A model generated the notes under the pieces. It was not told the DNA's origin. It searched no databases and saw only the letters and a program-made list of their open reading frames with translations. Made by a program: the position numbers and the translations under genes. A stretch of 64,000 nt of DNA from Stappia sediminis (GTDB lineage Bacteria; Pseudomonadota; Alphaproteobacteria; Rhizobiales; Stappiaceae): the NCBI RefSeq assembly GCF_009826895.1, contig NZ_WUMV01000001.1:186001-250000 (forward strand), in the 5' to 3' direction. Below are positions 55,208 to 59,973 of this stretch, piece by piece (within the stretch, counting starts at the first letter, position 1; each line of letters opens with the position of its first letter).

Positions 55208-56194
55208 ATGACATTCACGAGAAGGACTCTCATGGCAGGTGCCGCGGCCGTTGCCTTCGCAGCAGGAACCGCGACCGCCGCCTTCGCCGAAACCAAGTGG
55301 GACATGCCCACGCCCTATGGCGACAACAACTTCCACACGATGAACATTGCCGAATTCGCCGGGGACGTCGGCGAGGCGACCGGCGGATCGCTGACGATCC
55401 AGGTTCATTCGGCAGGCTCGCTCTTCAAGCATCCGGAAATCAAGAACGCCGTGCGCAAGGGCCTTGCGCCGATCGGCGAGGTGCTGATCTCCCGCCTTTC
55501 CAACGAAGACCCGATCTTCGGCCTCGATTCCGTACCGTTCCTGGCAACTTCCTATGACGATGCCAAGAAGCTTTACGACGCCTCGCGCCCGCTTCTGGAA
55601 AAGAAGCTCGAGGAGCAGGGCCTGCAGCTTCTCTTCGCCGTGCCGTGGCCCCCGCAAGGCATCTACGCCAAGAAGGAAGTGACGTCCCTTGACGACCTGA
55701 AGGGCGTGAAGTTCCGCGCCTATAACGCCGCAACCGAGCAGATCGCCCAGCTTGCGGGCGCCGTGCCGACGCAGGTCGAGGTGCCGGATATTCCGACCGC
55801 CTTCTCCACTGGCCGGGTGGACGCCATGATCACCTCGCCGTCGACGGGCGCCAACACCAAGGCCTGGGATTTCCTCTCCCACTACCACGACACGCAGGCG
55901 TGGCTTCCGAAAAACATGGTGATCGTCAACAAGGCCGCCTTCGACGCGCTTTCCGACGACGAGAAGAAAGCCGTCCTGGACGCGGCGGCCGAAGCCGAAA
56001 CGCGCGGCTGGGAAGCCTCCAAGACCGAGACGGCCGACAAGACCAAGGTGCTTTCCGACAACGGCATCACCGTTGTGGCTCCGAGCGACGCTCTCATGGG
56101 CGGCTTTGCCGAGATCGGCGCGACGATGGTCGAGGAATGGAAAGCCTCCGCCGGCGACGAGGGCGCGGCGGTAATCGATGCCTACAGGAACTGA
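55208..56194 (+). CDS. TRAP transporter solute-binding protein (DctP family), second system
   Basis: A 328-aa periplasmic receptor. The signal peptide contains a twin arginine (TFTRRTLMAGAAAVAFAAG), so export may be by Tat. DLKGVKFRAYNAATEQIAQLAG carries the ligand-binding arginine, and VDAMITSPSTGANTKAWDFLSHY fits the family. It should bind an acidic solute, presumably what the linked hydantoinase processes. A hairpin directly after its stop may limit read-through to the permease genes, as in other binding-protein operons. The sequence differs clearly from the first system's receptor. Confidence 0.88.
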   Translation: MTFTRRTLMAGAAAVAFAAGTATAAFAETKWDMPTPYGDNNFHTMNIAEFAGDVGEATGGSLTIQVHSAGSLFKHPEIKNAVRKGLAPIGEVLISRLSNEDPIFGLDSVPFLATSYDDAKKLYDASRPLLEKKLEEQGLQLLFAVPWPPQGIYAKKEVTSLDDLKGVKFRAYNAATEQIAQLAGAVPTQVEVPDIPTAFSTGRVDAMITSPSTGANTKAWDFLSHYHDTQAWLPKNMVIVNKAAFDALSDDEKKAVLDAAAEAETRGWEASKTETADKTKVLSDNGITVVAPSDALMGGFAEIGATMVEEWKASAGDEGAAVIDAYRN

Positions 56195-56275: not shown

Positions 56276-56833
56276 ATGCGCCCGATACTCACCCGCGCCT
56301 ACGCGCTTGCCGAAATGCTTGCGGCAAGCTGCCTCGTCATCATCGCCGCACTCGTGCTTTTGCAGGTCATGGGCCGCATCGCCGACGGGACGCTCAAGCT
56401 CTTCGGCTTCGAAGCCGTCGGCTTCCTCGTGCCCTCGCTTGCCGAGATCGCGGGCTTCCTGCTGGTCGGCGCCTCGTTCCTGGCGCTCGCCTCCACACTT
56501 CGCCACGCGGTGCATATCCGGGTCTCGCTGGCGATATCCCATGCACCGGAAAGCCTTCGAAAGGTCATGGAGACGCTGGTGCTCGTGATCGCACTGGCGC
56601 TGATCGCCTATTTCTCCTGGTATGCCGTGCTGCTTGCGCTCGACAGCTATCAATTCAATGAAGTTTCCTTCGGCATCATCCCGATCCCGCTCTGGATCCC
56701 GCAGGCCGTCATGGCGCTCGGACTGATCGTTTTCGCAATCTCCATGCTCGACGACCTGATCGTGCAGCTTTCCGGCGGAACGCCGAGCTACGTCCTTGCC
56801 GAAGAGGGCAAGGGCATCGAGGGGGCGGACTGA
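56276..56833 (+). CDS. TRAP transporter small permease (DctQ family), second system
   Basis: A 185-aa inner-membrane protein with four hydrophobic segments and the typical GFLLVGASFLALASTLRHAVHIRVSL (in outline). ATG 56276 fits the usual length; the frame extends 16 codons upstream without a ribosome binding site. The last base of its stop is the first base of the large permease ATG (TGATG), so the two are translationally coupled. Confidence 0.83.
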   Translation: MRPILTRAYALAEMLAASCLVIIAALVLLQVMGRIADGTLKLFGFEAVGFLVPSLAEIAGFLLVGASFLALASTLRHAVHIRVSLAISHAPESLRKVMETLVLVIALALIAYFSWYAVLLALDSYQFNEVSFGIIPIPLWIPQAVMALGLIVFAISMLDDLIVQLSGGTPSYVLAEEGKGIEGAD

Positions 56834-58134
56834 TGGATATTTCGCTCTTCGCGCCGCTTCTGGGCGTCGTCCTGCTCGTTTCGCTCGCGCTCGGACTTTG
56901 GGTTTCGGTATCGCTCGCCGCATGCGCGCTGTTCGCGATGTATTTCGTCACGCCGCCCTCCGGCCCGGTGCTTGTGACGACGGTGTGGGGGGCAGCGAAC
57001 TCCTGGGATCTCACGGCCCTGCCGATGTTCATCTGGATGGGCGAGATCCTGTTCCGCTCCAAGCTTTCGGAAAACATGTTCGCGGGGCTTTCGCCCTGGA
57101 TGCGCAACCTTCCCGGCAGGCTCTTCCACGTGAACATCATCGGCTGCGGCATCTTCGCCGCCGTCTCGGGCTCCTCGGCCGCCACCACCGCGACCATCGG
57201 CAAGATGTCGCTGCCCGAACTCCTGAAGCGCGGCTATGACGAGCGGCTCGCGATCGGCACGCTTGCCGGCTCCGGCACGCTTGGCCTCCTCATTCCGCCG
57301 TCGATCATCCTGATCGTCTATGGGGCTGCGACCGAACAATCCATAGCGCGGCTTTTCATCGCCGGCGTATTGCCGGGCGCCATGCTTTGCATCCTGTTCA
57401 TGGGCTACGTGATGGCGTGGTCCTTCCTGAACCACGAGAAGATGCCGGAAGCCGATCCCGCGGTCCCTTTCGTGGAGCGTCTGGTCGCAACGCGCGGCCT
57501 CTTGCCGATCATCGTGCTGATCGTCGGCGTCATCGGCTCGATCTATGCGGGGCTCGCATCGCCCACGGAAGCGGCCGCCGTCGGCGTTTTGCTGTCGCTC
57601 TCGCTGTCGTGGTGGTACGGCACATTGACGAAGGCAAGCTTCACCGATGCGCTTCTTGGCGCGACGCGCACCTCCTGCATGATCGCCTTTATTCTTGCCG
57701 GCGCCGCGATGCTGACGGTCGCCATGGGCTTTACCGGCATCCCGCGCGAGCTTGCAGGCTGGATCGGCTCGATGAACCTTTCGCCTTATGCGCTACTCGC
57801 GGCGCTTACGCTGTTCTTCATCGTGCTCGGTTGTTTTCTCGACGGGATCTCGGTTGTGGTGCTGACCACATCGGTGATCCTGCCGATGGTGGAAGCCGCC
57901 GGCCTCGACCTCATCTGGTTCGGCATCTACCTCGTGCTCGTGGTGGAAATGAGCCAGATCACGCCGCCCGTCGGCTTCAACCTCTTCGTGCTGCAGGCAA
58001 TGACGGGGCGGAACATCTTCCAGATCGCGCGAATGGCGCTGCCGTTCTTCCTGATCATGATCCTGGCGGTCGTGCTGATCGTCGCCTTTCCGGGGCTGGC
58101 GACCTGGCTGCCGCAAACCATGCTGTCGAATTGA
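56833..58134 (+). CDS. TRAP transporter large permease (DctM family), second system
   Basis: A 433-aa membrane protein, about twelve segments, with the DctM signatures GCGIFAAVSGSSAATTATIGKM (in outline, near residue 105) and SPTEAAAVGVLLSLSLS near residue 243. It carries the solute with sodium. Coupled to the small permease gene; followed after 11 bases by the MarR-like regulator, so all four lie in one operon. Confidence 0.87.
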   Translation: MDISLFAPLLGVVLLVSLALGLWVSVSLAACALFAMYFVTPPSGPVLVTTVWGAANSWDLTALPMFIWMGEILFRSKLSENMFAGLSPWMRNLPGRLFHVNIIGCGIFAAVSGSSAATTATIGKMSLPELLKRGYDERLAIGTLAGSGTLGLLIPPSIILIVYGAATEQSIARLFIAGVLPGAMLCILFMGYVMAWSFLNHEKMPEADPAVPFVERLVATRGLLPIIVLIVGVIGSIYAGLASPTEAAAVGVLLSLSLSWWYGTLTKASFTDALLGATRTSCMIAFILAGAAMLTVAMGFTGIPRELAGWIGSMNLSPYALLAALTLFFIVLGCFLDGISVVVLTTSVILPMVEAAGLDLIWFGIYLVLVVEMSQITPPVGFNLFVLQAMTGRNIFQIARMALPFFLIMILAVVLIVAFPGLATWLPQTMLSN

Positions 58135-58145
58135 CGGGAGACGCC

Positions 58146-58694
58146 ATGTCCAGGGAAGAGGCTAAAGCGGGAGGAAACGGTGAGGCCACGACGGTCGGGC
58201 CGGTCGTTTCCGCAGCACATCTGGCGTCCGGAGCCATGCCCGCGCTCTCGGAAGTGGAATTCGCCGTCACCATGATGGTGAACGCCTATCACCGCTGGAT
58301 GGTGCGCTGCATGGCGGCGGCCGGAGCGGCGGGCATGAGCCCGCTCGACACGCTGGTGCTGCATACCGTCAACCACCGCGACAGGCCGAAGACGCTGGCC
58401 GACATCTGCCTCGTCCTCAACATCGAGGATACATATACGGTCACCTACGCGCTCAAGAAGCTGGAGAAGGCGGGGCTTGTGAAATCCGGCAAGCGGGGGA
58501 AGGAAAAGACGGTCGAGATCACGGCGGACGGCGAGGACATCTGCATGGAATACCGTCGCCTGAGGGAGGCGCTGCTGGTCCAGCCCGTCAAGGGGCTCGG
58601 CATGGACGAGACAGAGCTTTCCAAGCTCGCCGCCACGCTGCGCTCCGTTTCCGGCCATTATGATCAGGCTGCCCGCGCGGCCGCAGCGATGTAA
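58146..58694 (+). CDS. MarR-like winged-helix regulator, probable control of the hydantoinase/TRAP cluster
   Basis: A 182-aa protein with a winged helix in the middle (about residues 60-130: LDTLVLHTVNHRDRPKTLADICLVLNIEDTYTVTYALKKLEKAGLVKSGKRGKEKTVEIT in outline). CGGGAG precedes ATG 58146. It lies at the end of the TRAP operon and is the only regulator in the cluster, so it probably binds the similar sites at 54274 and 55084. Its last codons (AAAAM and TAA) lie inside the first copy of the 46-bp tandem repeat, so the repeat supplies the stop codon. Confidence 0.8.
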   Translation: MSREEAKAGGNGEATTVGPVVSAAHLASGAMPALSEVEFAVTMMVNAYHRWMVRCMAAAGAAGMSPLDTLVLHTVNHRDRPKTLADICLVLNIEDTYTVTYALKKLEKAGLVKSGKRGKEKTVEITADGEDICMEYRRLREALLVQPVKGLGMDETELSKLAATLRSVSGHYDQAARAAAAM

Positions 58695-59072
58695 TCGCGA
58701 GGACGCGCAAAGGGAGAACGCCGCGGCCGCAGCGATGTAATCGCGAGGACGCGCAAAGGGAGAACGCCGCGGCCGCAGCGATGTAATCGCGAGGACGCGC
58801 AAAGGGAGAACGCCGCGGCCGCAGCGATGTAATCGCGAGGACGCGCAAAGGGAGAACGCCGCGGCCGCAGCGATGTAATCGCGAGGACGCGCAAAGGGAG
58901 AACGCCGCGGCCGCAGCGATGTAATCGCGAGCACGCGCAAAAGGGGAATGTTGCGGCGGCAGCGATGTAATCGCGAGCGCGCGCAAAAGGGGAATGGCGC
59001 GGCCGCGGCGATGTAATCGCGAGCACGCGCAAAAGGGGAATGGCGCGGCCGCAACGATGTAATCGCGAGCGT
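58677..59072. repeat. Array of nine 46-bp tandem repeats
   Basis: The string GATGTAATCGCGAG recurs at 58688, 58734, 58780, 58826, 58872, 58918, 58964, 59010 and 59056, a constant period of 46. Each unit has a hairpin GCGAT-gta-ATCGC and most have GCGGCCGC before it. Units 1-5 are identical (GGACGCGCAAAGGGAGAACG part), while units 6-9 have diverged (CACGCGCAAAAGGGGAATG) and the last is incomplete. The array starts within the MarR-like gene and ends about 75 bases before the small MscS gene. Confidence 0.95.
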
Positions 59073-59145
59073 GCTAATAGTGCCGTCTTGCCAATTTCGT
59101 ATGACCTAACGATACTTTGCGCCGTTTCAAACCGGGGAGAGGCGC

Positions 59146-59973
59146 ATGAACGAGCAGGTGAACGGGTTGATCGACCAGGCGGTCGAGCTGGTGGCTCTTT
59201 ACGGGCTGAAGGTAATTGGCGCGATCGCGATCCTGATTATCGGTTTCTTCATTGCCGGCAGGGTGGCGGGCTTCACGAAAAAGGGTTTGGCACGCTCAAG
59301 CGTCGATCCGATGCTGCAGGGCTTCATTTCAAGCCTTGTCAAATACACCGTGCTGGCGGTCACCGTGATCGCCGTCCTGAACCAGTTCGGCGTGCAGACG
59401 GCGAGCCTGATCGCCGTTTTGGGTGCCACCGGCCTTGCCATCGGCCTTGCGCTGCAAGGTACGCTTTCGAATGTGGCCGCGGGCGTGATGTTGCTCCTGT
59501 TCCGCCCCTTCAAGGTGGGCGACTATATCGAGGTGGCAGGGCAGGCCGGGACGGTGAAGGACGTCTCCCTCTTCACCTCGGAGCTTGCGACGCCCGATAA
59601 CGTCCAGATCATCGTTCCAAACAGCCAGGTCTGGGGATCGTCCATCGTCAACTATTCCTTCCATTCGACGCGACGCCTCGATCTTGCGCTCGGCATCGCC
59701 TATGAAGACGATATCGGCAAGGCGAAGGCCGCCGTCGAAGACGTCATAAAATCCGACAGCCGCTGCAAGGCCGATCCCGCACCGCTCGTCGCCGTTTCGA
59801 ACCTCGGCGAAAGCTCGGTCGATTTCGTCATTCGCATCTGGTGCGAAGCCGGCGACTATTGGGACCTCAAGTGGGACATGACGCGGGCGCTCAAGGAGCG
59901 GATGGACACCGAAGGCATTACCATTCCCTATCCGCAAAGGGTGGTGCACCGCCTGGCCGACGCCGCCGCATAG
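59146..59973 (+). CDS. mscS: Small-conductance mechanosensitive channel (MscS)
   Basis: A 275-aa inner-membrane protein of near-canonical MscS size with three hydrophobic segments (about 18-40, 62-82, 87-115). The pore helix is LIAVLGATGLAIGLALQGTLSNVAAGVMLLLFRPFKVGDYIE in outline, with the Ala/Gly ridge of MscS. The beta domain has TPDNVQIIVPNSQVWGSSIVNYS. It should form a heptameric osmotic safety valve. A hairpin without a T run follows at 60018-60038. Confidence 0.92.
   Translation: MNEQVNGLIDQAVELVALYGLKVIGAIAILIIGFFIAGRVAGFTKKGLARSSVDPMLQGFISSLVKYTVLAVTVIAVLNQFGVQTASLIAVLGATGLAIGLALQGTLSNVAAGVMLLLFRPFKVGDYIEVAGQAGTVKDVSLFTSELATPDNVQIIVPNSQVWGSSIVNYSFHSTRRLDLALGIAYEDDIGKAKAAVEDVIKSDSRCKADPAPLVAVSNLGESSVDFVIRIWCEAGDYWDLKWDMTRALKERMDTEGITIPYPQRVVHRLADAAA

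Follow-up and report, generated by a model that had tools for sequence, protein, structure and literature searches.

Many bacteria have minisatellite loci, which serve to tell strains apart, as in the MLVA scheme for Brucella, a genus of the same order as the bacterium studied here (PMC1513380). The mycobacterial MIRUs are minisatellites that lie mostly between genes, are interspersed, and have been described as apparently mobile elements that insert at start codons (PMC3635867, PMC12548453). Here we describe a tandem array in Stappia sediminis (Stappiaceae), contained in a stretch of 64,000 nucleotides that we call the window. The gene order in the window is a TRAP transporter operon (dctP, 55208-56194; dctQ; dctM, 56833-58134), a MarR-type gene, the array, mscS and a fumarase-like gene. 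The features to which we refer are as follows.

58146-58694, + strand: MarR-type winged-helix regulator gene, 182 aa (open reading frame; Pfam HTH_27, 9.7e-20, and MarR_2, 2.8e-7)
58692-58694, + strand: TAA stop codon of the MarR-type gene, in unit 1 (ATGTAA is present again in every unit)
58676-58905, + strand: units 1 to 5, 46 bp each, identical, apparently the youngest part of the array, with a derived G in GAGGACGC
58906-59043, + strand: units 6 to 8, variants identical to unit 1 at 38 to 41 of 46 positions, apparently an older part of the array
59044-59074, + strand: partial unit 9, about 31 nt, running on into sequence that trails the single copy in Hongsoonwoonella zoysiae
59088-59116, + strand: promoter-like site for mscS, TTGCCA-17-GATACT (consensus match only)
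59146-59973, + strand: mscS, small-conductance mechanosensitive channel gene, 275 aa (Pfam MS_channel domains)

Tandem Repeats Finder places the array at 58676-59069, with a period of 46, 8.6 copies, 95% matches, no indels and a score of 648, confirming that it is real and far beyond chance. It was the strongest array by score in a 1.2-Mb sample of its own genome, in which the runner-up scored 321. A preliminary description made from the sequence had counted nine units of exactly 46 bases; the period stands, but the tandem-repeat search and cutting the array into units give eight full units, spanning 58676-59043, followed by about 31 nt of a ninth. The five identical units of that description are units 1 to 5, and the divergence it placed on the mscS side is carried by units 6 to 9, which match unit 1 at 41/46, 38/46, 40/46 and 32/46 positions, respectively, the repeat stopping near 59074. 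Its hairpin, GCGAT-GTA-ATCGC, is found in units 1 to 8, but unit 9 has a shorter stem that lacks the outer pair (ACGAT-GTA-ATCGC). Similarly, its palindrome, GCGGCCGC, occurs in eight of the nine units, but in unit 7 its place is taken by GCGGCGGC.

With units of over 9 bp arranged head-to-tail at one locus (46 bp x 8.6, no indels), the array is a minisatellite and in this respect resembles the panel-1 loci of the Brucella scheme, also from Hyphomicrobiales (PMC1513380). It differs from them in that a gene's stop codon falls within its unit and its period is not a multiple of 3. As at VNTR loci, copy number differs between relatives, in this case between species (1 versus 8.6). As in MIRUs, the units lie at the junction of two genes, where they touch a reading frame at its end and are expected to affect the genes little; unlike MIRUs, the array occupies a single locus, appears to have grown out of the 3' end of the gene itself, and has no dispersed copies.

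One might ask whether the count of units was created by assembly. The five identical units amount to 230 bp, a length that short reads might fail to span, and the assembly is in 22 contigs. Against a misassembled number of identical units, each of units 6 to 8 has variants of its own, these follow in order, and the sequence on either side of the array is unique; a multi-unit array must therefore exist, and the doubt concerns just how many identical units there are. We regard an artefact of this kind as very improbable.

What the unit is made of can be read from the regulator gene. The first unit had been said to supply the last codons and the stop of the MarR-like gene, and this is correct: the TAA at 58692-58694 lies within unit 1, together with the codons for ...RAAAAM-stop. 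A MarR orthologue is present in 61/61 family genomes searched, and those whose ends were read keep the C-terminus ...YDQAARAAAAM-stop with minor changes; none of the other orthologues read across the family has an array downstream of its stop. The stretch GCGGCCGC-GCGATG-TAA is the coding sequence for QAARAAAAM-stop, the C-terminus conserved throughout the family, and the palindrome GCGGCCGC corresponds to alanine codons. In each unit, about 32 nt thus represent the end of marR and its immediate 3' flank, leaving 14 nt of untraced origin, which in the older units read GCAAAAGGGGAATG. We sought a source for this filler in the sequence flanking the array, the ribosome-binding region of mscS included, where matches to GCAAAAGGGGAATG were no better than those of shuffled queries; the first step was therefore not a simple copy of the present flanking sequence. 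By their sequence, the striking features of the unit, palindrome and hairpin, are explained by its origin from the coding end of marR and the 3' flank. Because the last codons and the TAA are repeated in every unit, a change in copy number would leave the MarR protein essentially untouched, and the array is predicted to be silent for that protein.

The closest relative with this locus is H. zoysiae, another member of the Stappiaceae, which has the same order dctM-marR-mscS and whose MscS and MarR proteins are 94% and 95% identical to those of the window. Its marR ends GCGGCGGCGATGTAATCGCGAGCACGCTTGTCGTGCC, that is, one copy of the gene-derived part of the unit followed directly by the post-array sequence. 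The distance from the marR stop to the mscS start is 83 nt in H. zoysiae versus 451 nt in the window, and the difference, 368 nt, is exactly 8 x 46. When eight units are removed, the sequence from the marR end through mscS aligns with H. zoysiae without gaps, with 148/178 positions identical. In 400 kb of H. zoysiae surveyed for tandem repeats, no array scored above 88. The simplest reading of these alignments is that the lineage of the window gained eight 46-bp units; the alternative is an ancestor with two or more units followed by contraction in H. zoysiae. We consider the H. zoysiae locus decisive for what the sequences indicate about the origin of the array. The copy numbers, 1 in H. zoysiae and 8.6 in the window (from one genome of S. 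sediminis), also make plausible the variable-number locus that had been proposed.

The units differ in ways that suggest a history. Units 6 to 9 and the single H. zoysiae copy have in common a C (GAGC), and units 1 to 5 share a derived G (GAGG, in GAGGACGC), which supports the earlier proposal of recent amplification at the regulator side. Units 6 to 8 differ from one another at 2-4 of 46 positions, whereas units 1 to 5 show no differences, and the window and H. zoysiae have diverged by 26% at mscS third positions and by 17% in the intergenic region. Set against this divergence, units 6 to 8 look older and the five gene-side units look like a recent expansion.

We then considered how far the array extends beyond this locus. 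It was absent from all other genomes among 398 of the order, and searches of plasmids, phages and viral contigs gave no match to the unit, which removes a mobile origin from the candidates. As the preliminary description had proposed, the genome itself was searched for copies of the unit; apart from the array, only matches at chance level were found, and there is no second locus or set of dispersed copies. A single-locus, home-grown array is therefore not a MIRU-type or REP-type interspersed element. Nor is it a CRISPR, as the whole 46-bp period repeats and there are no unique spacers. Absence from all relatives had been expected to mean a private duplication, and the array is indeed missing from all other relatives searched. 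Weak matches of 27-84 nt in six genomes of other families (L139-L144) lie in different contexts without the 46-bp array and were rejected as homologous arrays.

The hairpin invites the possibility that the array is a transcriptional insulator or 3'-end stabiliser, in which a stack of RNA hairpins would protect the TRAP-marR transcript or block read-through into mscS. The hairpin is indeed present in all units (with the shorter stem in unit 9), the array has widened the gap between marR and mscS from 83 to 451 nt, the promoter-like site for mscS comes after the array, and in H. zoysiae the region with one copy has a somewhat more stable fold than its shuffles (z -1.97). The array itself, folded whole as sense RNA, gave z -0.74, with 22/100 dinucleotide shuffles equally good, and no terminator-like site (a stable stem followed by a T run) was found in it. 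Moreover, 26% of 46-bp pieces drawn at random from this genome contain a stem of at least 5 bp, and the array is not conserved in relatives. We therefore did not retain the stack of hairpins at the operon's 3' end that had been suggested, and consider a role of this kind improbable. Selection on the hairpin core was likewise discarded: the longest invariant run within the unit covers 16 columns, as expected by chance (p = 0.18).

Protein binding had also been suggested, and the regular 46-bp spacing and the palindrome in eight of nine units are what an iteron-like array of regulator sites would show. A related idea is an RNA sponge that takes up a protein such as CsrA, favored by a weak CsrC covariance match at 58876-59097 of the window (21.4 bits, E 0.00055), which arises from the repeats and falls well short of the gathering score of 61. 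However, the palindrome is found about 107 times per Mb of this genome and is coding sequence for the conserved C-terminus, no block of columns within the unit is significantly conserved, and neither the genome nor the relatives searched contain a further site or array. Given that the unit is the coding end of a gene plus its 3' flank, the protein-binding claim was not supported. CsrC was the only Rfam lead, and the genome yielded no CsrA at E <= 1 (the control for that search being itself loose), so we rejected a Csr-type sRNA or other RNA family. Either version, binding array or sponge, appears highly unlikely.

On the minus strand, all frames stay open across the array, as had been observed, because the complement of the unit has no stop codon. 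This accounts for the long minus-strand open reading frames, and coding on that strand was rejected, since a stop-free strand is seen in 40% of 46-bp pieces taken at random from this genome. A minus-strand fragment of two units folds well (z -3.94), which we attribute to the repeated GC palindromes. For this genome, none of the three features (hairpin, palindrome, open minus frames) is out of the ordinary.

Taken together, the comparisons make it very probable that the array is a private minisatellite, and a candidate VNTR, that arose by lineage-specific tandem duplication, expanded, and is most likely tolerated as a neutral spacer, its neutrality being deduced from absent signal. The ancestor shared with H. 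zoysiae would have had a single marR end with mscS 83 nt later, as the sister suggests. In the lineage of the window, a 46-bp segment (about 32 nt of gene end and 3' flank plus 14 nt) would have been duplicated head-to-tail, and the pattern of units suggests growth by replication slippage or unequal recombination, the mscS-side units being older and diverged and the five gene-side units stemming from a recent burst. Each unit restores ...AAAM-stop, giving the same MarR protein at any copy number, and the promoter-like site for mscS lies intact, wholly downstream of the array; these two properties are why we favor a neutral spacer. A contingency-type spacer, in which changes in copy number alter read-through from TRAP-marR into mscS with the MarR protein unchanged, seems quite unlikely. 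As an ordinary, lineage-private minisatellite of unusually clear origin, the array offers a clean, small example of minisatellite birth in bacteria, with a single-copy sister, a size difference that equals a whole number of units, and a readable age gradient. It could serve as a strain-typing marker, and it illustrates that such striking features as NotI palindromes, hairpins and stop-free antisense frames can arise as side effects when the GC-rich end of a gene is copied.

The promoter-like site for mscS begins just downstream of the array, and H. zoysiae has the same hexamers and spacing. The mscS product matches the NCBIfam MscS subfamily at 1.3e-73, below the cut-off of that model. A MarR-type gene directly 3' of dctM (56833-58694 in the window) was seen in 13 of 30 family loci checked, across genera (besides the window, L110, L111, L126-L133, L136 and L137). 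Among the same 30 loci, mscS is the next gene after the MarR-type gene only in this genome and in H. zoysiae.

Other repeats were met in the course of these searches. In one of the other-family genomes with weak matches (L139, 1499-1577), a GC-rich duplicated segment, GACGCCCGCAGCGGCAATGCCGCGAGGACGCGC, lies at a stretch that repeats the start of a hisF-like gene; this two-copy repeat and the 46-bp unit have the 16-mer CGCGAGGACGCGCAAA in common, probably by chance. The genome of the window contains other strong tandem arrays, at L167, 614-818, and L156, 2616-2831 (G000:C10), with periods of 24, 30 and 54; as these periods are multiples of 3, the arrays probably lie in coding sequence.
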